Part shown: in pieces, positions 51,235 to 64,000 of the stretch | How the letters are laid out: each line of letters begins with the position of its first letter | How positions within the stretch are numbered: position 1 is the first letter of the stretch | Origin: Archaeoglobus neptunius | GTDB lineage: Archaea > Halobacteriota > Archaeoglobi > Archaeoglobales > Archaeoglobaceae | Assembly: GCF_016757965.1 (NCBI RefSeq) | Contig: NZ_JAEKIW010000010.1 | Span: forward strand, 1-64,000 | Direction: 5' to 3' | DNA length: 64,000 bases | Notes under the pieces: generated by a model | Told to the model about the DNA's origin: nothing | Seen by the model: only the letters and a program-made list of their open reading frames with translations | Database searches by the model: none | Made by a program: the position numbers and the translations under genes

Positions 51235-51705
51235 ATGGCGCTAAATCCGATGGATATTTACAAGCTTCTTCCAAAAACGAACTGCAAAAAATGTGGGGAA
51301 GCAACATGCATGAGCTTCGCATTCAAAATTCTGAACAGGGAGAAAAAGCTTGAAGAATGCATTCCGCTTTACGAGGACAAAAAGTACGAGAGGCAGAGAA
51401 AGAAGCTGGAGGAGATGCTAAAACCTTTGGAAGAGGCAACTGAGACCGGGCTCATTGTGGACGAGAGTCTGTGCGTAGGTTGTGGAAACTGTGTCGTTGT
51501 CTGCCCAGTTCATGTTGAGAAGGATCCGAAGGGGGCTGCAGTTGGGAGTGGAATAACGATTGACGATCCAATACTCAGGGTCGAGGATGGAGTTGTAAAG
51601 GTTGTGAACATGCAGGCATGCAGGAGATACGGTAAGAACAGGGTCTTGTGTGTTGTCTGCAGGGAGAACTGTCCGACAGATGCAATAAGATTTCTGGAGG
51701 GATGA
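51235..51705 (+). CDS. fwdG: FwdG-like ferredoxin with N-terminal FeS domain
   Basis: This 156-residue protein joins two Fe-S parts. Residues 10-45 form the four-cysteine domain found in the corrinoid Fe-S protein gamma subunit and in RnfB (C17, C20, C25, C42 in NCKKCGEATCMSF). Residues 78-156 hold a ferredoxin with CVGCGNCVVVCP and CVVCRENCP. Two bases separate it from fwdB, so it probably feeds electrons to or from the formylmethanofuran dehydrogenase. The FeS addition is unlike standard FwdG. Confidence 0.78.
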   Translation: MALNPMDIYKLLPKTNCKKCGEATCMSFAFKILNREKKLEECIPLYEDKKYERQRKKLEEMLKPLEEATETGLIVDESLCVGCGNCVVVCPVHVEKDPKGAAVGSGITIDDPILRVEDGVVKVVNMQACRRYGKNRVLCVVCRENCPTDAIRFLEG

Positions 51706-51707
51706 TT

Positions 51708-52901
51708 ATGATATGTCCGGGTTGTTCGTGTCTTTGTGATGATATTCAGATTAAGAATGGCAGGATTTTCCATGCCTGCAGGAGGGGGGAGGAGATCTTT
51801 TCCAGATACGGTGAGAACAGGGCCAGGGCGCTGGTTGATGGTAGAGAGGTTGATGTCGATACGGCGATAGAGAAGGCAGTCGAAATTCTCAAAGATGCCG
51901 AGAATCCTGCAATTTACGGATTGGATACAACTGTCATGGAGGTACAGGAAATTGCGGTTGATGTTGCGGAGAAACTGAATGGCTACATAGATGATAACTC
52001 ATCCTTCTGCCTTGGTGAGCTTGTTGAGGCTGTTTTGAAGGGAGATGTACCAACAACGACACTTGACGAGGTCAGGGACAACGCCTATGTTATTGTTTAC
52101 TGGGGGGCAAACCCCTTCCACAGCCTTCCGAGGCACATGTCGAGGTACAGCTACTATCCGAGAGGAGCGAAAAGGCCGCGCGGCTATGAGGAGGACAGGT
52201 ATCTGGTTGTTGTTGACGTAAGAAGGAGTGAAACTGCGAAACTGGCAAAGAAGAATGCAAAATACATCCAGGTTGATAACGACGAGGAGCTCGTGGAGTC
52301 CTTCATGAGGGTTGTTGATGGCAAGGCGGCCAAATACGCAAAGGAAGCGGGAGTAATAATTAACGAGATGAAAAAGGCAGATTTCAATGTTATCCTCGGT
52401 GGACTCGGATTGAAATATGGACTCAGGGATCTGAACAGATTTGTGGAGTTGGTGAGGAAACTGAACGAGGTGGCAAAGGTTTACTTCATTCCTGCTGGCT
52501 TCCATGCAAATATGAGGGGGTTCAACGAAACCCTCTTTGAGAGGACAGGAGCTGTAAACAAATACAGCTTCAGGGATGGCAAGAGCGACAAAGAATTTGC
52601 TTTCACAGAACTCCTGAGGAACGATCGGGTTGATGCAGCTCTCATCGTCGGAACCGACCCCGTATACTCCCTGCCGTACGAGATTTCTGCAAAACTCGGC
52701 AAAATCAAGACTGTGGTCGTCGATCCAAGGATGAGCTTCACTGCCAGAGTTGCTGATGTCGTCATACCATCGGCCGTTTCTGGAATAGAGATGAGTGGAA
52801 CTATGGTAAGGAGTGATGGTGTGAGGATTAAGCTTGAAGCGATGGAAGAGAGAGAGATAAACGACCTCTACATTTTCAGGAAGATTAGGGAGGGATTGTG
52901 A
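51708..52901 (+). CDS. fwdB: Formylmethanofuran dehydrogenase subunit B
   Basis: This 397-residue molybdopterin-family subunit has an N-terminal [4Fe-4S] cluster motif CPGCSCLCDD and a candidate metal-ligand cysteine C101 in SSFCLGEL. No selenocysteine codon is used. Pterin contacts are seen in YWGANPFHSLPRH and VGTDPVYSLPYE. It reduces CO2 or oxidises the formyl group at a W or Mo centre together with FwdD. The ATG at 51708 has GGAGGG six bases upstream; an ATG two codons earlier is possible. Confidence 0.93.
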   Translation: MICPGCSCLCDDIQIKNGRIFHACRRGEEIFSRYGENRARALVDGREVDVDTAIEKAVEILKDAENPAIYGLDTTVMEVQEIAVDVAEKLNGYIDDNSSFCLGELVEAVLKGDVPTTTLDEVRDNAYVIVYWGANPFHSLPRHMSRYSYYPRGAKRPRGYEEDRYLVVVDVRRSETAKLAKKNAKYIQVDNDEELVESFMRVVDGKAAKYAKEAGVIINEMKKADFNVILGGLGLKYGLRDLNRFVELVRKLNEVAKVYFIPAGFHANMRGFNETLFERTGAVNKYSFRDGKSDKEFAFTELLRNDRVDAALIVGTDPVYSLPYEISAKLGKIKTVVVDPRMSFTARVADVVIPSAVSGIEMSGTMVRSDGVRIKLEAMEEREINDLYIFRKIREGL

Positions 52902-53260
52902 TGATGCGTTTTTCCAAGTTTCTGAAAGTTGAGGCCGAAATCGTTGTTGCAAGGCAGTCACTGGTAATGGATGAAACAAAAAAGTCTGTAGAGCCGGTAA
53001 TTTTCTTCCATCCAGAGTTTGCCAAGAGGAGCGGAGTGAAAGAAGGGGATGTGGTTGAAGTTGAGGCCAACAGCAGGGTTGTGAGGCTAAAGGCAAAAAT
53101 TTCAGAAAACGCTCCTGAGAATGGTGCCATTATCCCGAACGGCATATTTGCAAGCTATCTGGCAAGCTTTGATGGCTTCAAGAAGTTCAAGGCAAACATA
53201 GAGGTGACTGAGGGTGAGCCGAGCAGTGTTGAAGAGATACTCGGCAAGATAAAATCCTAA
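52901..53260 (+). CDS. fwdD: Formylmethanofuran dehydrogenase subunit D
   Basis: This 119-residue protein is a molybdopterin-dinucleotide-binding domain with EPVIFFHPEFAKRSGVKEGDVVEVEA and a later AIIPNGIFAS. It completes the FwdB active site. The ATG at 52901 overlaps the fwdB stop by one base; a GTG one codon earlier is also in frame. Subunits A and C are not in this window and must be encoded elsewhere. Confidence 0.92.
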   Translation: MMRFSKFLKVEAEIVVARQSLVMDETKKSVEPVIFFHPEFAKRSGVKEGDVVEVEANSRVVRLKAKISENAPENGAIIPNGIFASYLASFDGFKKFKANIEVTEGEPSSVEEILGKIKS

Positions 53261-53307: not shown

Positions 53308-54405
53308 ATGATAAATAAGATTCCAATATCTAAACCATTTATAGATGATGAGGAAATCGAAGGAGTTGTGAACGTCCTTAAATCCGGCATGATTGCTCAG
53401 GGTGATGTTGTCAGAGAGTTTGAGGAAAAGTTCTCCGGTTATATCGGTTCTGATTTCGCCGTTGCGGTGAGTAACGGAACAGTTGCGCTTGACGTTGCTC
53501 TAAAGGCATGGGGTATTGGCGAGGGGGATGAAGTGATAACCACGCCGTTTACCTTCATAGCAACATCCAATTCTATTTTATTTCAGAAAGCCAAGCCCGT
53601 TTTTGCGGACATTGAAGCGGACACCTATAACATAAACCCTGATGACGTGCTGGAAAAGATATCCCCGAAGACGAAGGCGATAATAGGGGTACATTTATTT
53701 GGTCATCCCTTTGACGTTAAGGCTATAATGGACATCTGTGAGGATCACGATTTGATTCTTATCGAGGATTCTGCACAGGCTCACGGGGCGGAGTTCAGGG
53801 GCAAAAAGGTAGGAAGCTTTGGAACCGGATGTTTTTCTTTCTATGCAACGAAAAACATAACCACTGGGGAGGGAGGGATGATTACAACTTCAGACAAAAA
53901 AATTGCAGAAAAATGCAGACTGCTACGCAGTCATGGCGAGGCTTCCAAGTACAATCATCTCCTTCTCGGTTACAATTTCAGAATGACCAATATTCAGGCA
54001 GCAATCGGTCTGGCACAGCTTGAAAAGCTGGACAGGTTAAACGAAATGCGAAGAAGGAATGCGGAGTTTCTGAACAGGAACATCAAAGTAGAGGGACTGG
54101 TAAAACCGGTGGAAATGAAGGGAATGAAGCATGTTTATCACCAGTATGTTGTAAGGGTGGAAGAGGAATTTCCAATGAAGAGAGATGAATTTGCAGAGTT
54201 TTTGACGAGTAAAGGTATTGGAAATGCAGTCCACTACCCGGCTCCCATCTACAAGCAACCACTCTACATTAAGCTCGGATTCGGGGATGTGAGATGTCCT
54301 GTCGCTGAGGAGGTTTCATCCAGGGTTCTGAGCCTGCCAGTCCATCCCGGAGTCGGTGAAGAACAGCTCAGGTATATTGCGGAAACAATCAACTCAGTTT
54401 CTTGA
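53308..54405 (+). CDS. DegT/DnrJ/EryC1/StrS sugar aminotransferase
   Basis: This 365-residue PLP enzyme has the family start IPISKPFIDDEEIEGV, a cofactor loop SNGTVALDVALKA and the Schiff-base lysine K182 in SFYATKNITTGEGG. It transfers an amino group to a keto-sugar nucleotide. Together with the UDP-sugar dehydrogenase and GlcNAc-1-P transferase that follow, it opens a surface-glycan operon. TATA-like AAAAATTTAAG lies about 30 bases before the ATG. Confidence 0.92.
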   Translation: MINKIPISKPFIDDEEIEGVVNVLKSGMIAQGDVVREFEEKFSGYIGSDFAVAVSNGTVALDVALKAWGIGEGDEVITTPFTFIATSNSILFQKAKPVFADIEADTYNINPDDVLEKISPKTKAIIGVHLFGHPFDVKAIMDICEDHDLILIEDSAQAHGAEFRGKKVGSFGTGCFSFYATKNITTGEGGMITTSDKKIAEKCRLLRSHGEASKYNHLLLGYNFRMTNIQAAIGLAQLEKLDRLNEMRRRNAEFLNRNIKVEGLVKPVEMKGMKHVYHQYVVRVEEEFPMKRDEFAEFLTSKGIGNAVHYPAPIYKQPLYIKLGFGDVRCPVAEEVSSRVLSLPVHPGVGEEQLRYIAETINSVS

Positions 54406-54414
54406 GGTGGTGGT

Positions 54415-55587
54415 ATGGTGATGGCTTCAGTGATCGGGCTGGGAAAGGCTGGATTGCCGCTGGCTGCAACGATAGCCGAGAGCGGGATAAAGGTGGTCGG
54501 GATTGACGTCGATGAAGAGAAATGCAGGATGATAAATCAGGGAATGAATCCGATTCCAGAGGAGAAAGGTTTGGACGAACTGATAAAAAAGCACGGGGGT
54601 AAAAACCTGATAGCCACCACAGATTACTGGGATGCAGAACGGTGCAATCTTTTCATAGTTATTGTGCCGCTCTTCGTTGATTCACTCCATAATCCAGACT
54701 TTTCGATCATGGAATCGGCTTTCAGGTCCGTTGGGAGAGTGATAAAGGAAGGTGACGTGGTGGTGCTGGAGACCACCGTCCCGCCTCTGACAACCGAAAC
54801 CATCGTCAGGAGATGGCTGGAAGAGGAAAGCGGATTGAAACTTGGCCAGTTTTACCTTGCGCACTCTCCAGAAAGGATAATGACGGGATACAGTTTATCC
54901 AGACTCAGAGAGTTTCCGAAAGTAATCGGAGGTGTGGACAGAAAGAGTGGAGAAATGGCGTACGATCTGTATAAGAAGTTCATTCCCAATCTCCATCTGG
55001 TCTCCAATGCGAGAACAGCGGAATTCATAAAGGTGATCGAAGGCTGTTACAGAGATGTGAATATCGCTCTGGCGAATGAGCTTCTTAAGATAGCAGAGGA
55101 AATCGGTGTTGACTTTTACGAGGCCAGGAAATATGCAAATCACGAGTACTGCCACATCCACCTACCATCGACGGGAGTGGGGGGACACTGTATTCCTGTG
55201 TATCCATGGTTTTTAATTAAGGAGATGGAGAAGAGAGAAAAATTTGAAAAGGCCAGACTGCTGAGAACCGCCAGAGAGGTAAATGACGAGATGATTGATT
55301 ACTGGATAGAGAAGCTGGTTCTGGAGTGTTTGAAGGTTGATAAGCCATTGAGCGAAGTGAAAATCTGCATCAGGGGTATTACATTCAGGGAGGGTGTTAA
55401 GGAAACGTATCACAGCAGGGCTCTGGCCATAGTTCAGCGTTTGAGAGAAAAGGGTCTGAATGTCGGGGCTTTTGACGAGATGTTCAGTCCGAAGGAGCTG
55501 GAAGAAATGGGAATTTCTCCTATGAAACCCGAGGATGCTGATATTGTATTCGATACATTCAATCTGAAATTTCATACGAGGGCGTAA
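54415..55587 (+). CDS. UDP-sugar (N-acetylmannosamine-type) dehydrogenase
   Basis: This 390-residue enzyme has the NAD motif GLGKAGLPLA at 8-17 and the catalytic cysteine C259 in GVGGHCIPVYP. AHSPERIMTGYS and EFIKVIEGCYRDVN match the nucleotide-sugar 6-dehydrogenase family. It oxidises a UDP-sugar to the uronate, possibly UDP-ManNAc or UDP-Glc. It lies nine bases after the aminotransferase gene, and the third gene of the operon starts three bases after its stop. Confidence 0.92.
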   Translation: MVMASVIGLGKAGLPLAATIAESGIKVVGIDVDEEKCRMINQGMNPIPEEKGLDELIKKHGGKNLIATTDYWDAERCNLFIVIVPLFVDSLHNPDFSIMESAFRSVGRVIKEGDVVVLETTVPPLTTETIVRRWLEEESGLKLGQFYLAHSPERIMTGYSLSRLREFPKVIGGVDRKSGEMAYDLYKKFIPNLHLVSNARTAEFIKVIEGCYRDVNIALANELLKIAEEIGVDFYEARKYANHEYCHIHLPSTGVGGHCIPVYPWFLIKEMEKREKFEKARLLRTAREVNDEMIDYWIEKLVLECLKVDKPLSEVKICIRGITFREGVKETYHSRALAIVQRLREKGLNVGAFDEMFSPKELEEMGISPMKPEDADIVFDTFNLKFHTRA

Positions 55588-55590
55588 AGC

Positions 55591-56586
55591 ATGGAGAATT
55601 CGGGAGTTTACCTGCTGATTGCGATTTCTTTCTTACTCTCCGTTATCGTGGTTTCGGCGCAAATAAGGAAGTTCAGAAAAGTTGGACTGCTTGCTCCGGA
55701 TTACTATAAACCAGATTTGAGAAAGGTACCAACGGGTGGTGGCATTTCGATACTCATTGTCCTGTCTGCAGTCTTTTCTCTTGTTTACATCTTAAACAGT
55801 TTCTGGAGCAACTCCATTTTACCCCCAATAACCCGGCTTGACTGGAAGGCATTGATTGTAATATGTTTTTTCGGACTTTTTGGGCTGCTCGATGACTATG
55901 CGGATGTTGGGAGAATAACGAAGATAATTTTGACGTTCTCCTTCTCTCTGCCCCTTGCAATTGAGGTTAGTACCGGCAGCATATTTCTGCCATATCTCGG
56001 CCTGGTATTCCTTGGAATCTTTTACTGGCTGATCGTCATTCCAATGTATATAATGGTTACTTCAAACCTCGTTAACATGCATTCTGGATTCAACGGGATG
56101 GCAGTTGGCCTTACGTCGATAATTATCGCTTTTTTACTGATTAAATCAATTTTATCCGGTCGTGATACTGTTTTTACACTTGCAACAATGCTGGGGGTGT
56201 TGCTGGGATTGCTGTGGTACAACAGATATCCGTCGAGGATATTTGAGGGTAATGTCGGGGCTCTATCAATGGGTGCGGCCATTGGAGCCAGCATCGTAGC
56301 TAACGGATTTCTGGTGTCAGGCTTTATTATGCTTGTACCCCACGTGGTTAATTTTTTGATGTACGTTTACTGGAGGCTGATGCGGAAGCTGCATCCGGAA
56401 GACCCAAGATGGGAATCTGTAAAATTTGGGAAAGTGCGGGAGGATGGAACGATTGAGGTACCGAACTCCCTCACCCTTAAATGGGTGCTGCCACATCGAT
56501 TTAGAATGAAAGAATGGCAGATCGTGCTGGCTATGTATTCCCTGACATTCATTTTTTGCATTTTTGGTCTGTTTGTTGATTACTGA
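55591..56586 (+). CDS. GlcNAc-1-phosphate transferase family (GPT/AglH-like)
   Basis: This 331-residue protein has about ten membrane helices and the polyprenyl-phosphate sugar-1-P transferase motifs: KVPTGGGI, LLDDYADVGR, NLVNMHSGFNGMAVG and FEGNVGALSMGAA. It attaches a sugar-1-phosphate to a dolichyl phosphate, the first step of lipid-linked glycan assembly for N-glycosylation. The eukaryote-like GPT type is common in archaea. It forms an operon with the two upstream genes. Confidence 0.92.
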   Translation: MENSGVYLLIAISFLLSVIVVSAQIRKFRKVGLLAPDYYKPDLRKVPTGGGISILIVLSAVFSLVYILNSFWSNSILPPITRLDWKALIVICFFGLFGLLDDYADVGRITKIILTFSFSLPLAIEVSTGSIFLPYLGLVFLGIFYWLIVIPMYIMVTSNLVNMHSGFNGMAVGLTSIIIAFLLIKSILSGRDTVFTLATMLGVLLGLLWYNRYPSRIFEGNVGALSMGAAIGASIVANGFLVSGFIMLVPHVVNFLMYVYWRLMRKLHPEDPRWESVKFGKVREDGTIEVPNSLTLKWVLPHRFRMKEWQIVLAMYSLTFIFCIFGLFVDY

Positions 56587-56701: not shown

Positions 56702-57142
56702 ATGGCCAAAAAGTACCTGTTTGTGATTGTATCTTTTATATATGCAGTTATGATATTCTATCTGTCTTCGATTTCTTCTCCTCCAAACCCCGTTCCTTCG
56801 AGCCTCTTTTTGTTTTTGCACCGGAAAATGGTTGAATTGGGTGTCGAGTTTCTGGGCATTCCTTTTTATTTTGTGTATCGCTATCCCGACAAGTTCGCTC
56901 ATATGATGCTGTACATGGGATTCGGTCTCGTTCTCAACCCGGCCATAAGATCGACCGTGGGGAGGCAACCGGAGCTGCTTTCGATCATAATCGGTGCGAT
57001 TTATGGAGCAAGCGATGAGTACCACCAGAGTTTTGTTCCGTACAGGTCTGCAAGCACGTCTGATTTAATGGCAGATGTGGCTGGACTGGTTCTGTCGCAA
57101 ATCCTGCTGATAGCTGTGGGGAGACTGAGGGTGGCAAAATGA
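56702..57142 (+). CDS. VanZ-like membrane protein
   Basis: This 146-residue protein has four membrane helices and the VanZ signature GASDEYHQSFVPYRSAS followed by DLMADVAG. VanZ-family proteins are linked to cell-envelope functions, and bacterial exosortase loci often include one. The ATG at 56702 follows an A-box by only about 20 bases, so the message is probably leaderless. Its stop overlaps the start of the DUF1616-like gene. Confidence 0.85.
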   Translation: MAKKYLFVIVSFIYAVMIFYLSSISSPPNPVPSSLFLFLHRKMVELGVEFLGIPFYFVYRYPDKFAHMMLYMGFGLVLNPAIRSTVGRQPELLSIIIGAIYGASDEYHQSFVPYRSASTSDLMADVAGLVLSQILLIAVGRLRVAK

Positions 57143-57459
57143 TTTTGCAGTTTTTCAGAATAGTTTTTGGATTGGCATTTCTGTTTTTCGTTCCGGGCTT
57201 TGCCTTCAGCCTCATACTGTTTCCAAAAAAGGAAGATTTGACCTTGACGATGAGATTGGGACTTTCAGGAGCCTTAAGCGTTGTATTCGATGTGCTGGTT
57301 ACTCTATTCATCGATCTGGTTTTGCACATACCCACAACCCCTGTGAATATACTTGTGGCTCTCCTGACCTTCACTATGATCTGCCTGGCTGTTTGGAGAC
57401 TGGAAATCTTGATTCTCACGAGAAAACATCAGGAAGGAGAGCCTCTAATCCAGAAATGA
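57139..57459 (+). CDS. DUF1616-like membrane protein, N-terminal half
   Basis: This 106-residue protein has three or four membrane helices with the DUF1616 opening: RIVFGLAFLFFVPGFAFSLILFP, shown here as the span 7-29, then LGLSGALSVVFD. Full-length DUF1616 proteins continue with another helix and an external beta domain; here the frame ends after the helices. A gene encoding what looks like the missing C-terminal half lies on the opposite strand, overlapping by 31 bases. It is coupled to the VanZ-like gene by a four-base overlap. Confidence 0.7.
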   Translation: MILQFFRIVFGLAFLFFVPGFAFSLILFPKKEDLTLTMRLGLSGALSVVFDVLVTLFIDLVLHIPTTPVNILVALLTFTMICLAVWRLEILILTRKHQEGEPLIQK

Positions 57460-57941: not shown

Positions 57942-58793
57942 TTACTTTCTCCTTAGCAGCACTACCGCTCCGAACAGTCCGAGAGCAGCTACTGCTATTG
58001 GTGAAAACTCAGGGACTGATGGCGGTACGTTGTACTCGTTGTTGTCCTGCGGCGATGAGCACCCCGGATCGTTGGGATAGTCAATAAGCCCGTCCCCATC
58101 GTTGTCGATACCATCATTACATTGGGTGGTGACATTTTGCAGTGCCTGTGTACAGTTGTTTAGTATTATGTTCAGTGTACCGGTCGGATCGCTGTTGAAA
58201 TCGGCGAGATTCACCTGAGTCCCACCTGTCGCAACCAGTCCGGCAACACCGTTGGGAGTACCGTAGTCATTCTGAGCTGATCCCCACTGTGGATCAAATA
58301 TTCCGATGAAGTAGGCAGGTACGGAATCAAGTGCATTTACGGCATCGGTCTTGTTGTTGACTCCCGGATCCGCATCTTCGTCGGTGATCAGTATAACACA
58401 GGAAGCAACACCCCTCAAACCCAAAGCAGTCTGATTCGTTGCGAGCACGATTGCATCAAAACCCGGCTGATATCCGCCTGTGGGAACAATACTATCAAGG
58501 CAATTCGTGAATGTCGTACTGTCATCTGTTAGCTGACATACCACACGCGGATTATTTGGATTTGGACTGAAGGTTGCACCGAATCCCACCAGACCAACCT
58601 TAAAATCTCCATGCGACTGGAGGTAGTTGAAAATATACCCTACGTTATTCTTTACTGCGGTTATTTCATCGCCCATACTTCCTGATTCGTCTATAACAAA
58701 CACCACATCACCCTGTAACTGCTGGGCAATTGCGTTTCCCATCGAAATCAGCAGAGCTACCGCAGCAACCAGTAAGAGTCCGCTTACTTTAAT
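57942..58793 (-). CDS. vWA-domain surface protein with PEF-CTERM sorting signal
   Basis: The protein has a vWA domain with MIDAS VIDESGSMG and LITDEDAD. A calcium-binding-type DNDGDGLIDYPNDPGC repeat follows, and the C-terminus is a PEF-CTERM signal: VPEFSPIAV, a hydrophobic helix and LLRRK. The first ATG in frame (58742) would leave it without an export signal. The frame upstream reads KVSGLLLVAAVALLIS and ends AIAQQ, a classic signal peptide. It opens at ATT (58793), placed three bases after GGGGGGTGAT; no ATG, GTG or TTG exists before the upstream stop. I therefore propose ATT as start, giving 283 residues. Confidence 0.8.
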   Translation of the reverse strand: MKVSGLLLVAAVALLISMGNAIAQQLQGDVVFVIDESGSMGDEITAVKNNVGYIFNYLQSHGDFKVGLVGFGATFSPNPNNPRVVCQLTDDSTTFTNCLDSIVPTGGYQPGFDAIVLATNQTALGLRGVASCVILITDEDADPGVNNKTDAVNALDSVPAYFIGIFDPQWGSAQNDYGTPNGVAGLVATGGTQVNLADFNSDPTGTLNIILNNCTQALQNVTTQCNDGIDNDGDGLIDYPNDPGCSSPQDNNEYNVPPSVPEFSPIAVAALGLFGAVVLLRRK

Positions 58794-58991: not shown

Positions 58992-60410
58992 ATGAATTGG
59001 GATGAGATTTTGAGAATCATTGGCAGGAATAAAATTAAAGACAGTGAAAATATGGACCCTGTTGTCAGATGTGCGAAAAAGTTTCACAGGCATGCGCGCA
59101 TCGAAATGCCAGAAATTGATGGGGATGCGGTTGTGGAAACCGGGCATCAGCCCAACTTCCTTCCTCATCCGGGAACGTTCAAAAAAGCCTTCCTGGCCAG
59201 TTTTCTGGAGTCCGTCGGTGGAGTTATATCCTTATTTGGAATATATGACTACAATCCGGCAACGGCGAAGCTGCTGTATCAGAACAGGGTTCCCGACATC
59301 AGCAAAAACGGATTCAGGAAAATCGGGTTTAAGCTGAGTAAAAAAGACACCTTGAAGAGATTTGATCAGCTAGAGAAACCACCGAAGGAGGAATGGCGCA
59401 GAGAGATTGCAAAGATTGAGGAAATTTACGACAACGTTGACTGGATAGCAGGTGAAATGGAGAAAAGCTACAGGTTGGGAAAGAATTTTGCAGATGTGAA
59501 TGCAATCCTTTTTGCGAGAATATGCCACCACCTTGGTTTTGACAACGTCCTGTATTTTAAATACTCCGACCTCCAGAAGAATGGAGTTTTTTTAAACGAG
59601 TGGCTGGAAATCTCAGGAGATGTGAGCGAGTATAACCAGATCTACAATGCCGCAGTTATCAAAAAAAGAATTTCTGATGGAAAAATTAACGATTTGACTC
59701 TTGCCCCCTTCTGGTACCTCTGTGACTGTGGAGGCAATGCTCCGGTTTACCATAAAACCGTTTTCACGGCAAAATGTCCAGTCTGCAAAGCAACCCATGA
59801 GTTCCACAGCATTGAAGAGGTTTTTGCCCGATTGTCCCCGAGAGCGGTATTTCGAAACCTCCTGTTTGCGAAGGGGCTTGGTACCTCGCTGTTCATCTCT
59901 GGAAGTGGCGGTAGCCTGAGGTATGGACAGATTTCCAATGAAATGTACGCAAAGTTCGGAATAGACAGGCCGCTGGTGGTGTACTGGAAAAGCAAGGACT
60001 ATTATCTGTCTCCGATCCGCAGAAAGGTAATCACGGAGATTTCAAAACTGTACGGGAACGACTTTTTCGAGATCGATGTAATGAAAAAAAGACTGGAATG
60101 GTTCCATGGGTTGAAGTCAGATAGAAGATTTATGGGATATTACCTGTATTCCCATACCCTGCTTCAGATCGCTGCGAAGGTCTTTTCTCTCGATTACTCA
60201 ATGGTTGATCTTCTGGCCAGCGCCGGTATCGATGAAATCGTGAGAAAATGGAAGGAATCGCTGGAGAATGCCAGCATTAACCTGAATGAATTCTGTTCCG
60301 TAACTTCGGATGTGGATTTTGGGTGTCTGAGTTACCACCGTCGGATAATGGAGCTGGTTGAGGAAAGTAAGGTTTCAGATCCTGCAAATTTGCTGGGTGA
60401 TGGGAGATGA
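58992..60410 (+). CDS. BshC-like protein with inserted zinc ribbon
   Basis: This 472-residue protein resembles BshC, the cysteine-adding enzyme of bacillithiol synthesis. Near residues 49-72 it has VVETGHQPNFLPHPGTFKKAF, of which TGHQ plus the following G and K match the BshC TGQQ/TGHQ region; LFGIYDYN then sits where BshC has its WxxxEDHD-like strand. Near 242-262 it has a CDCGG ... CPVCK zinc-ribbon pair not usual in BshC. Similarity is by pattern and may only mean a shared Rossmann-type core. The following gene is a PIG-L deacetylase, overlapping by four bases, as expected for a BshB partner. Confidence 0.55.
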   Translation: MNWDEILRIIGRNKIKDSENMDPVVRCAKKFHRHARIEMPEIDGDAVVETGHQPNFLPHPGTFKKAFLASFLESVGGVISLFGIYDYNPATAKLLYQNRVPDISKNGFRKIGFKLSKKDTLKRFDQLEKPPKEEWRREIAKIEEIYDNVDWIAGEMEKSYRLGKNFADVNAILFARICHHLGFDNVLYFKYSDLQKNGVFLNEWLEISGDVSEYNQIYNAAVIKKRISDGKINDLTLAPFWYLCDCGGNAPVYHKTVFTAKCPVCKATHEFHSIEEVFARLSPRAVFRNLLFAKGLGTSLFISGSGGSLRYGQISNEMYAKFGIDRPLVVYWKSKDYYLSPIRRKVITEISKLYGNDFFEIDVMKKRLEWFHGLKSDRRFMGYYLYSHTLLQIAAKVFSLDYSMVDLLASAGIDEIVRKWKESLENASINLNEFCSVTSDVDFGCLSYHRRIMELVEESKVSDPANLLGDGR

Positions 60411-61030
60411 GGAGAGTACTGGTCCTGAGTCCGCATACAGATGACGGAGAGCTTGGTTGTGGTGGGAGTATAGCGAGATTTGTCGAGGAGGGTGTGGAGG
60501 TGTACTACGTGGCCCTCTCAGCATGTGAGAAATCCGTACCTGAGGAGTTTCCGCCAGATATTTTGAAGAGAGAGGTTAGAGAGGCGACTAAGATCCTGGG
60601 AGTCGACAGTTCAAATTTACTCCTTTATGATTTTGAAGTAAGGGAATATCCCATACTGAGACAAAAGATCCTGGACACCCTCATTGAGATAAGGGAGGAG
60701 GTGAAGCCTGACTGGGTGTTTGCACCATCATCCTTCGATACCCACCAGGACCACAAGGTCACGAGAGAGGAAACTTTGAGGGCGTTCAAAAAATACACCA
60801 TTCTCGGTTACGAGCAACCTTGGAACAACATAACCTTCAACACGACGTGCTTTATCAAACTTGAAGAAAGACATGTGGATAAAAAAATAGAGGCTCTGGA
60901 ATGCTACGAATCGCAGAGAGACAAGGCTTACATTGGAGAAAAGTTCATTAGAAGTTTGACGAGGACCAGAGGGGTGCAGATCGATGCAGAATACGCCGAG
61001 GCATTCGAGGTAATTCGCTGGATAATCTGA
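60407..61030 (+). CDS. PIG-L/LmbE-family deacetylase
   Basis: This 207-residue protein has the zinc-binding motif SPHTDDGELGCGG (H10, D12/D13) and the second site THQDHK (H113, H116). PIG-L enzymes remove the acetyl group from N-acetylglucosamine conjugates, including GlcNAc-malate (BshB), GlcNAc-inositol (MshB) and GlcNAc-PI. Its ATG overlaps the stop of the BshC-like gene, so both act in one pathway. The archaeosortase gene follows after 37 bases. Substrate could be a thiol precursor or a glycan. Confidence 0.85.
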   Translation: MRRVLVLSPHTDDGELGCGGSIARFVEEGVEVYYVALSACEKSVPEEFPPDILKREVREATKILGVDSSNLLLYDFEVREYPILRQKILDTLIEIREEVKPDWVFAPSSFDTHQDHKVTREETLRAFKKYTILGYEQPWNNITFNTTCFIKLEERHVDKKIEALECYESQRDKAYIGEKFIRSLTRTRGVQIDAEYAEAFEVIRWII

Positions 61031-61067: not shown

Positions 61068-61892
61068 GTGGTTCAAAAGAAAAAAGGTCTGGCATTAGTT
61101 CTGGTGGCGTTATTTCTGGTTGCCGCATTTATCGAACTTAGCTACGGTTCTGTGTATTTTGGTCTGGTTTTCTTCGCTTTGATTGTGGTTTTTCTTTACC
61201 TGCTCACAAAACAGAGCGGAAGAAAAGAAATTAAATCGTCGAAGCTCCAGATTCTTTTTGGTGTACTCTTAATTCTTCTTGTTGTGGTTTACAATATTTA
61301 CAGAAATTCGGAATTTCAGACACTGGACTCGATGGTGATGTTACTGGGCTTCTCTCTGATAATCTCAAATCTACGTCGATTTGCAGAGATTGGCAGATTT
61401 TCTGTTTATTTTTCCTTCACATTCCTCTTTTTTTACACCATTCTTTTCCTCATACCCGAGAATATTGGATTTGATCTGCCGTACTACTACGGCCACTATT
61501 TTGTTACGCTACCTGTGGTCACTCTAATGCAGAAAATTGGGTACAATGTTAGCATCCCGGCGATGAGACTGATTGAGGTGTGTGGTGTGGAGGAAACGGT
61601 GCTGAAAATTGATCTTGCGTGTTTTGGATGGTACTCGCTGATTTTAATAGTAAGTCTGGTTTTTGCCTATTCCGAGACAATTGAGAAGATACGGACAAAG
61701 AAATTGCTGACGATCTTGGTAATGCTTGTTCTGGCATCGTATTTTGCCAACCTTTTGAGAGTGGCGATTCTTGTCCATCTGGCCTATTTTTACGGCGTTG
61801 GAACGATGATGGAAGTTCACTCTCATCTTGGCTGGATACTTTTTGCCATTTTTCTTTTACCTGTGGCCTTTTTCCTCCTGAATAGAAACTGA
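61068..61892 (+). CDS. artC: Archaeosortase C (PEF-CTERM-type transpeptidase)
   Basis: This 274-residue membrane protein has about eight helices and the exosortase/archaeosortase catalytic set: cysteine C185 in IDLACFGWYSLI, arginine R231 in FANLLRVAILV and histidine H251/H253 in EVHSHLGW. Archaeosortases cleave C-terminal sorting signals and join the protein to a lipid. Two proteins with PEF-CTERM signals flank it at 58 and 62 kb, which defines the ArtC type. The start is a GTG at 61068 before a lysine-rich opening. It probably shares a transcript with the PIG-L gene. Confidence 0.88.
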   Translation: MVQKKKGLALVLVALFLVAAFIELSYGSVYFGLVFFALIVVFLYLLTKQSGRKEIKSSKLQILFGVLLILLVVVYNIYRNSEFQTLDSMVMLLGFSLIISNLRRFAEIGRFSVYFSFTFLFFYTILFLIPENIGFDLPYYYGHYFVTLPVVTLMQKIGYNVSIPAMRLIEVCGVEETVLKIDLACFGWYSLILIVSLVFAYSETIEKIRTKKLLTILVMLVLASYFANLLRVAILVHLAYFYGVGTMMEVHSHLGWILFAIFLLPVAFFLLNRN

Positions 61893-61967: not shown

Positions 61968-62034
61968 AATAATTTTATTAAATAGGAAAATTATTTATAC
62001 TCTTAAGTAACTATTAATGTTGAGGGGATGTAAA

Positions 62035-62937
62035 ATGAAAGTATTGAAATCGACAGTTCTGTCGATAGTGATAGGAATACTAATGGCGATAACCCCCACT
62101 CTTGCCGTTGACGTTTCTGTTGACGGTGATCTGAGTGATTGGGGATTATCCCAGATTTTGACAGACGATTGGAGCAACAAAACCACATGGATTCCAACAG
62201 TGGATGGTATCAGCTTCTTTGTGGAGGACAATCAGGACCCTGCAAACAGCGCAGCGATAAACTACAACGCTTCTTACACAGGAGTGCACATTTACGGCAA
62301 TACGACCTGGCAGGCACCCTACCGTGAACCGTTGCTGGTTGGGAACAGAGCGGAACCCTATGGTGGACCATCTGGAAAGTTTGGAGAAAAATTTGACATC
62401 GAGGCAATGTACGTTGCGGAGAACAGTTCACACATTTTCGTACTCATAATAACCTCTACTGCTACCGCCATGGGAGATCTGGCGCTTGATTTTGGGCCTG
62501 GCGGAGGGTATGGTTACGAGTATGCCGTGAATTTCCACAGATCGGGAGATACTGAAGGGGTTCTTGGTGGAGTTTATATGACCCCTACAAAGAACGACTG
62601 GACGAAACCGAGCCCGTTCCCGGAGAACGTGCCCGATAAGATCAATTTCTCAAGTGTTGATCCAATGAGCTATCTGTGTGTTGCGCAGATCAGCCTTACT
62701 GATCTGGGTGTGGATGATTTTGGCAGATCGAACTATGCATTTGAAGTGGCGATTCCGAAGAACTGTGTTGGAAACCCGGATCTGCCTGAAAAGCCGTCAA
62801 CTGCTTTGAATAGATTCTGGATAACCGAGTACTGCGGAAATGATTCCGGACCAAGTATACCAGAGTTCATTTCGATTCTGATACCTGCAGGTATTCTTCT
62901 TGGTTCTGTGTATTATTTCACAAGGAGAGAAAGGTAA
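62035..62937 (+). CDS. PEF-CTERM surface protein
   Basis: This 300-residue protein has a signal peptide (KVLKSTVLSIVIGILMA, cleavage near TLA/VDVS), an external beta-rich domain that starts VDGDLSDWG, like carbohydrate-binding DOMON-type or surface domains, and several NXS/T sites. It ends with IPEFISILI, a hydrophobic helix and TRRER, a PEF-CTERM sorting signal for the adjacent archaeosortase. The ATG at 62035 follows GAGGGGATGTAAA; an open frame six codons longer is not needed. Function of the external domain is unknown. Confidence 0.85.
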   Translation: MKVLKSTVLSIVIGILMAITPTLAVDVSVDGDLSDWGLSQILTDDWSNKTTWIPTVDGISFFVEDNQDPANSAAINYNASYTGVHIYGNTTWQAPYREPLLVGNRAEPYGGPSGKFGEKFDIEAMYVAENSSHIFVLIITSTATAMGDLALDFGPGGGYGYEYAVNFHRSGDTEGVLGGVYMTPTKNDWTKPSPFPENVPDKINFSSVDPMSYLCVAQISLTDLGVDDFGRSNYAFEVAIPKNCVGNPDLPEKPSTALNRFWITEYCGNDSGPSIPEFISILIPAGILLGSVYYFTRRER

Positions 62938-62977
62938 AATTAAATTTTAAATTATTTTATTTTTAAGGTTGAAAAAT

Positions 62978-64000
62978 ATGAAGATAATGGTTGATGTGGG
63001 GCATCCCGGACATGTCCACTTTTACAGAAATCCAGTAGCGAATTGGAAAAGAAACGGTCATGAGGTCCTTGTTGTTGCGAGGGATAAGGATCTCACCGTT
63101 AGCTTACTGAACTCGTTTGGTATCGAACATGTCAAAATAGGTGAGAGTAAAAATGGACTCATTGGTAAGGGTCTGGACATGATTGCCAAGGACTTGAAGC
63201 TCCTCAAAATTGCCAGAAAGTTCAAACCGGATATTCTTACCGGTATTTTCAGTCCGTACATATCTCAGGTCGGCTCGCTGATAAACAGACCTTCGGTGAT
63301 ATTCAACGATACTGAGATGGTGAGGTACAGCCAGCTCGTCACCACATTTGCTTCGGTGATATGCACGCCCAGATGCTTTCGTGGGAATGTGAGAAAGAAC
63401 ATCAGATATGACGGCTACCAGGAACTGGCGTATTTGCATCCGAATTATTTCGAACCTGACAGGTCAGTTTTGGAGGATCTTGGCATTGATGGTGAAAGAT
63501 ATATCGTGATGAGACTCATCTCCTGGAGTGCGTATCATGATTCCGGTCTCAAGGGGCTGGATTACAAGCAATTGCTTGAGACAGTAAAACACTTTGAGAA
63601 ATATGGCAGGGTGTTCATAACTTCCGAGAGGGAAATTAACGGCCCTCTGAAGAGGCATCTCCTGAAAGTTTCCCCGGAGAAAATACATTCCGTTCTCCAC
63701 CATGCCGATCTTTATTTTGGGGAGGGTGGCACGATGGCTGTCGAGTCTGCGTTGCTGGGCACACCGGCAATTCATGTCGAGTCCGATAAAAGCGGGAGAC
63801 CAACCGGTGAGACGAGCGGAAACTTTGTTGAGCTCAGGGACAGGTACGATCTCCTTTTCTTTTACGCCGACCACGATACAGCGGTTGAAAAGGCTACAGA
63901 ATTGCTTGAATCCGATAATACAAAGAGAGAGTGGCAGAAAAAGAGGGAGAAATTGATAAGAGATAAGGTTGATGTTGCGGAATGGGTAACGCAGTTTGTT
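62978..64000 (+). CDS. DUF354-family glycosyltransferase-like protein, truncated by window end
   Basis: The frame opens at an ATG at 62978 and runs past the right edge, giving 341 residues so far. It starts IMVDVGHPGHVHFYRN, the DUF354 signature, and has FGEGGTMAVESALLGTPAIHV in a late position, a GT-B-type nucleotide-sugar-binding element. DUF354 proteins are common in archaeal surface-polysaccharide clusters and are thought to be glycosyltransferases or epimerase-like enzymes. The gap to the PEF-CTERM gene is only 40 AT-rich bases. Confidence 0.85.
   Translation, partial: MKIMVDVGHPGHVHFYRNPVANWKRNGHEVLVVARDKDLTVSLLNSFGIEHVKIGESKNGLIGKGLDMIAKDLKLLKIARKFKPDILTGIFSPYISQVGSLINRPSVIFNDTEMVRYSQLVTTFASVICTPRCFRGNVRKNIRYDGYQELAYLHPNYFEPDRSVLEDLGIDGERYIVMRLISWSAYHDSGLKGLDYKQLLETVKHFEKYGRVFITSEREINGPLKRHLLKVSPEKIHSVLHHADLYFGEGGTMAVESALLGTPAIHVESDKSGRPTGETSGNFVELRDRYDLLFFYADHDTAVEKATELLESDNTKREWQKKREKLIRDKVDVAEWVTQFV

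Follow-up and report, generated by a model that had tools for sequence, protein, structure and literature searches.

Within the window (the whole 64,000-nucleotide stretch of Archaeoglobus neptunius DNA analysed here), a gene for a BshC-like protein and one for a PIG-L-type deacetylase lie immediately upstream of an archaeosortase gene. What would a pair of enzymes of the types that finish bacillithiol synthesis do in such a place? The first-pass annotation had left two answers standing: a thiol made from GlcNAc-malate, or an amino-sugar acylation step preparing the lipid or glycan used by the archaeosortase.

A coupled gene pair upstream of archaeosortase C

The three genes at the centre of the locus are as follows.

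58992..60410, + strand: BshC-like candidate ligase with a class-I-synthetase fold and a zinc ribbon (472 aa; assigned by AF2, Foldseek and hhalign)
60407..61030, + strand: PIG-L-type N-deacetylase (207 aa) with the metal-site motifs PHTDD and HQDH (PF02585, E 2.3e-20)
61068..61892, + strand: archaeosortase C, divergent subgroup (TIGR03762, 154.6 bits, cut-off 100)

Both reading frames of the pair were found at exactly the positions first annotated, with the translational coupling that had been proposed: their start-stop overlap is an ATGA of 4 bases (60407-60410). The archaeosortase C call downstream of the pair likewise held. The deacetylase belongs to the PIG-L family by score (73.9 bits against a PF02585 gathering score of 28.2) and by its metal-site motifs, and reaches 68.7 bits with the BshB1 model TIGR04001, below the cut-off of 182.5. 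Since PIG-L is the direct same-strand neighbour of the ligase gene (-166 to +29 nt) in 22 of the 26 loci examined, their adjacency goes beyond chance. A search for repeats around the pair found none of note.

The BshC-like protein has a class I synthetase fold

The 472-aa protein is invisible to sequence libraries, having no match at E<=1 in Pfam and NCBIfam and none in a single-sequence search of the PDB. Structure prediction, however, bore out its resemblance to BshC. The AF2 model (pLDDT 91.2, pTM 0.90) has as its top PDB match in Foldseek 4wbd, the Bacillus subtilis BshC (E 2.1e-13, TM 0.60/0.53), followed by the class I LysRS 1irx (E 6e-8) and then by other class I synthetases. In line with this, hhalign aligned the family profile (12 members, with relatives from the same phylum) co-linearly over its full length with four BshC sequences, at a probability of 95-96% and E values of about 3e-9 to 1e-8, each for a single pairwise comparison. 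The B. subtilis sequence used here is identical to 4wbd over residues 1-539, and the remaining three were taken from plasmid records. A profile search of the PDB (hmmsearch) gave only weak zinc-ribbon matches, to DPH3/Kti11 (E 0.12). Three elements of the protein can be placed on the DNA.

59139..59186, + strand: TGHQPNFLPHPGTFKK motif, residues 50-65, equivalent of the BshC GGQQ and class I HIGH region
59721..59786, + strand: zinc ribbon CxC...CxxC (C244, C246, C262, C265), its four cysteines invariant in 12/12 aligned members
59901..59924, + strand: GSGGSLRY motif, residues 304-311, equivalent of BshC GPGEINYW (hhalign)

Residues H52, Q53, P54, P58, G61 and K65 of the TGHQPNFLPHPGTFKK motif are invariant across the family, as are G304, G307 and Y311 of the GSGGSLRY motif. 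The former aligns with BshC GGQQ in hhalign and with the LysRS-I TGISPSGHIHLG in a weak profile comparison (probability 13%, E 2e-3), in which the HIGH-like region, the ribbon and a GG motif also follow the same order as in LysRS-I. The zinc ribbon may thus be an inherited class I feature and no insertion peculiar to one protein, as far as so weak an alignment can suggest. It had previously been taken as an unusual insertion hinting at a different substrate, a reading that we no longer favour: because the ribbon is fixed in the family and aligns, if weakly, with that of class I LysRS, it is by itself no sign of a different substrate.

With BshC (PF10079, PDB 4WBD) the family shares a full-length co-linear fold, a PIG-L deacetylase partner and the landmarks GxQ...K, R, GxG..Y and G..P. 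It differs in having HQPN for GGQQ and GSGGxxYG for GPGExxYW, so that the BshC active-region motifs (GGQQ, GPGExxYW) are missing from the 472-aa protein, and further in its zinc ribbon, its shorter helical C-terminus, the lack of a PF10079 match, the lack of BshA and its location in a surface-glycan/archaeosortase cluster. As GPGE and W of BshC are replaced by GSGG and G, the substrate or the mechanism may differ. Class I LysRS (1IRX), the second-best structural match, shares the zinc ribbon and the HIGH-like motif in matching order, but a separate, true class I LysRS is encoded in 12/12 genomes tested, that of A. neptunius included.

The pair is embedded in a surface-glycan cluster

The pair is flanked in the window by further genes for sugar and membrane functions.

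53308..54405, + strand: DegT sugar aminotransferase (PF01041, E 5e-129); a cluster member in only 4 loci
54415..55587, + strand: nucleotide-sugar dehydrogenase (TIGR03026, above cut-off); a cluster member in only 4 loci
55591..56586, + strand: MraY/WecA-like polyprenyl-phosphate glycosyl-1-phosphate transferase (PF00953, E 2.6e-24); in 14 loci
56702..57142, + strand: VanZ-like membrane protein (PF04892, E 2e-12; NF037970, above cut-off)
57139..57459, + strand: DUF1616-domain small membrane protein (PF07760, E 4e-11); adjoins the ligase gene in many other loci
57942..58742, - strand: VWA protein with the PEF-type C-terminus VPEFSPIAVAALGLFGAVVLLRRK (VWA, E 7e-12)
62017..62937, + strand: cluster protein c8 with the PEF-type C-terminus IPEFISILIPAGILLGSVYYFTRRER; in 12 loci, with no curated-family match
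62969..64000, running past the window edge, + strand: DUF354 glycosyltransferase-like protein (PF04007, E 6e-22; window coordinates are positions in locus L028 plus 49999); in 17 loci

In most lineages the MraY/WecA-like transferase, the VanZ-like and DUF1616 proteins, the pair, the archaeosortase, the PEF-tailed protein and DUF354 occur together, and the same cluster also holds a CapK-like AMP ligase, a NodB-type deacetylase, FemAB proteins, a hexapeptide acyltransferase and a flippase-like membrane protein, the last named by eye from its sequence and free of library matches. The NodB-type deacetylase scores 81 bits (E 5e-23) with the VimE model NF053580, below its cut-off of 440, and the FemAB protein 50 bits (E 2e-13) with TIGR03019, below its cut-off of 260. 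The cluster around the pair is, in most lineages, a surface-glycan pathway. The exception is one lineage, f4, in which the pair has other neighbours, a few sugar genes included, and the exosortase-family gene lies elsewhere (about 78 kb from the pair in genomes G040 and G067); two ligase paralogues of this lineage have no adjacent PIG-L gene.

Some neighbouring genes may be recorded here. Just upstream of the sugar genes, window positions 51235-53260 encode a ferredoxin-like protein and proteins resembling formylmethanofuran dehydrogenase subunits. In four loci (L063, L064, L066 and L069) genes for very large proteins, of 1474-1938 aa in the complete copies, are divergently oriented upstream of the glycosyltransferase of their lineage; the copy in L063 was seen to contain PKD domains. 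The second, PIG-L-free ligase copies of lineage f4 lie at L026:3-1658 and L027:7331-9220; a profile search placed a TAG within the frame of one f4 second copy, and some such copies may therefore be decaying or over-extended.

Distribution of the family and its link to an archaeosortase subtype

A family search of 394 genomes of the phylum returned a match in 28 of them, including a WbqC gene (in genome G202, see below) and a fragment at a contig end (in G260). The family is patchy even within the source genus (4/8 genomes, the present one included), and searches of plasmids, phages and viral contigs yielded no member of it. Of the carrier genomes 26/28 have an exosortase-family gene, as do 17/17 of those of good quality, a count made among carriers. 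This bears on the refuting condition named beforehand, a pair that occurs widely without artC or BshA: an exosortase-family gene is nearly always there, although lineage f4 keeps the pair far away from it.

The archaeosortase C itself has a cysteine in CFGW, an arginine in LLRVAI and a histidine in HSHLG. Protein c8 and the VWA protein are its probable substrates, judging by their visible C-terminal tails, which combine PEF, a hydrophobic stretch and basic residues. TIGR03024 gave 15.3 and 17.1 bits on the VWA protein, the best in the genome and both below the cut-off of 23; the model proved too insensitive for counting PEF-CTERM proteins. A second, weak exosortase-family gene occurs elsewhere in the same genome (contig C6:117813-118454).

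The ligase is tied to one type of archaeosortase. Among genomes with a divergent ArtC (108-161 bits) 12/13 have the ligase, against 1/38 of those with a classic ArtC (240-446 bits; Fisher p 1e-9, shared ancestry ignored). The two groups also stand apart in the ArtC tree, with support of 93/93 for the ligase-linked group; as other forks of this tree are open or modestly supported and one row, L114, is very long, we use only the two-group split.

WbqC in classic archaeosortase clusters

Classic ArtC clusters keep the PIG-L, FemAB, DUF354, NodB-like and hexapeptide genes without a BshC-like gene, and 15 of them carry WbqC (PF08889), mostly next to PIG-L or one gene away from it. Across the phylum, 15/36 WbqC genes lie <=15 kb from ArtC and 21/36 lie away from it. 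WbqC proteins were the top outside matches of the BshC-like family profile among 922 proteins, and the two family alignments match over 149 columns (E 8e-8), so WbqC is detectably homologous to the N-terminal half of the ligase. They share an HQPN(F/Y)xPYxG motif and a place near PIG-L in ArtC clusters, but WbqC is only about 230 aa long and lacks both the zinc ribbon and the C-terminal domain. The homology is seen at profile level only, the BshC-like protein having no match to PF08889 in Pfam. No significant match was obtained when the WbqC profile was compared directly with BshC or LysRS, and since the best PDB match of a WbqC model has an E of 0.014, and several of its top matches are class I TyrRS or ThiF-type proteins, its structural likeness is suggestive only. 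Through the ligase, the uncharacterised WbqC family is connected with the BshC/class I synthetase fold. A search for WbqC as a glycine transferase found nothing in the literature covered.

The weak match in G202, considered as a broken BshC-like gene, was rejected, as it is an intact WbqC gene. This genome, of the same family (loci L071:9211-9915 and L086:686-2327), has a divergent ArtC with PIG-L (86% identical) on one contig, and a BshC-like gene was not found in it. Its WbqC gene is on a different contig, flanked by the DUF354 and NodB genes, at the place that the CapK-like gene takes in relatives, so WbqC does not in every case stand in the position of the ligase.

In five classic clusters (L078, L103, L104, L106 and L110) a formyltransferase gene sits between WbqC and PIG-L, hinting at N-formyl or N-formylaminoacyl sugars. 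Near ArtC in two classic loci (L078:4656-7133 and L080:11076-13793), a DUF1616-like part is found within larger proteins of about 770-905 aa.

An N-aminoacyl amino sugar as the probable product

BshB and MshB are PIG-L-type deacetylases. In the BshB/BshC and MshB/MshC pairs, a deacetylase and a ligase together put cysteine on glucosamine (PMC4360819). MshC, the mechanism of which has been described (PMC2922099), is likewise a class-I-synthetase-like ligase, and it too follows a deacetylase in acting on glucosamine; it differs in deriving from CysRS, and the likeness is drawn from the literature. A second precedent comes from the type IX system of Porphyromonas gingivalis, for which it is proposed that VimE deacetylates a sugar and VimA then makes of it an N-seryl sugar, which becomes the linking sugar of type IX cargo (PMC7468200); exosortase acceptors have been speculated to be amino-acid-modified sugars in the same work (PMC7468200). 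Here too a proposed deacetylation followed by N-aminoacylation would stand beside a sortase-type system, and NodB (VimE-like) and FemAB (VimA-like) genes are also present in the archaeal cluster. The differences are that VimA is a GNAT/FemAB transferase, that the archaeosortase is another enzyme type than PorU and that the archaeal linking sugar is putative. Given the pairings of BshB with BshC and MshB with MshC, together with the VimE/VimA precedent, an N-aminoacyl amino sugar is the most likely product.

We therefore consider, with a probability of roughly 0.55 and by analogy with these systems, that the product of the module is an N-aminoacyl amino sugar belonging to the cell-surface glycan. 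PIG-L would deacetylate an N-acetylated amino sugar, probably in a polyprenyl-linked or nucleotide-linked precursor supplied by the neighbouring glycosyltransferases; the BshC-like ligase would then activate an amino acid and couple it to the freed sugar amine, and the product would be part of the glycan and no free thiol. The likely role of this sugar would be that of an acceptor, or linking sugar, for archaeosortase C, which would attach to it proteins cleaved at a PEF-type C-terminus. The fold, the coupling of the two genes, the conserved cluster, its link to archaeosortases and the place of WbqC beside PIG-L in other ArtC clusters are observed; the reaction, which amino acid and which sugar take part in it, and delivery to the archaeosortase are inferred, and cysteine is not implied as the amino acid coupled. 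Genomic context thus supports the earlier suggestion of an amino-sugar acylation step for the archaeosortase glycan or lipid. The cluster FemAB proteins could be the linking-sugar aminoacyltransferases, with the BshC-like enzyme having another task, and the formyltransferase genes between WbqC and PIG-L make N-formylation another possible fate of the amine.

It is highly improbable that the pair finishes a bacillithiol-like cysteinyl-glucosamine thiol in the cytoplasm, even though the two enzyme types are those of BshB and BshC and homologues of BshC and BshA have been reported in some archaea, mainly Asgard (PMC7278568). The pair is embedded in a glycan/archaeosortase cluster in most lineages and is too patchy within its genus for a housekeeping thiol; moreover, BshA (TIGR03999) was above its cut-off in 0/24 carrier genomes and PF10079 had no match in the genomes of 31 relatives, on which grounds bacillithiol synthesis, and with it the annotated route from GlcNAc-malate, was rejected. 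A misleading pointer towards bacillithiol in these archaea is thereby removed. The protein might instead be no amino-acid ligase but a repurposed nucleotide-binding fold used to transfer some other acyl group or to modify the lipid of the glycan, which we regard as unlikely: no KMSKS-type motif is evident, the GPGE/W residues of BshC are changed, and BshC ligase activity itself had never been shown in vitro as of 2015 (PMC4360819), but both the coupling to PIG-L, for which BshB and MshB are parallels, and the closest matches in structure, BshC and class I LysRS, point to amino-acid chemistry.

A closer competitor, though still a doubtful one, is that the pair N-acylates, with an amino acid or another acyl group, a sugar of an exopolysaccharide or S-layer glycan and that ArtC is merely co-located in an envelope cluster. 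Such decoration would fit the f4 pair with no archaeosortase nearby, the 21/36 WbqC genes away from ArtC and the many glycan enzymes of the cluster; the linkage to two types of exosortase-family genes across several families, and the correspondence of ligase type with ArtC subtype, speak against it. To return to the N-aminoacyl amino sugar, a more specific version can be put forward tentatively: ArtC might join PEF-CTERM proteins to this sugar on a polyprenyl-linked glycan, the acceptor being made by PIG-L and an interchangeable class-I-synthetase-like ligase, the zinc-ribbon BshC-like protein with divergent ArtC and WbqC with classic ArtC. On this view WbqC would be a widespread and minimal amino-acid:amino-sugar ligase.

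To our knowledge, it has not been established to what archaeosortase C or the exosortases join their substrate proteins, and a search for archaeosortase together with PIG-L found nothing in the literature covered. A ligase and a deacetylase tied to an archaeosortase subtype provide a specific candidate acceptor, the N-aminoacyl amino sugar, and a probable chemistry for a family that has no model in Pfam or NCBIfam.
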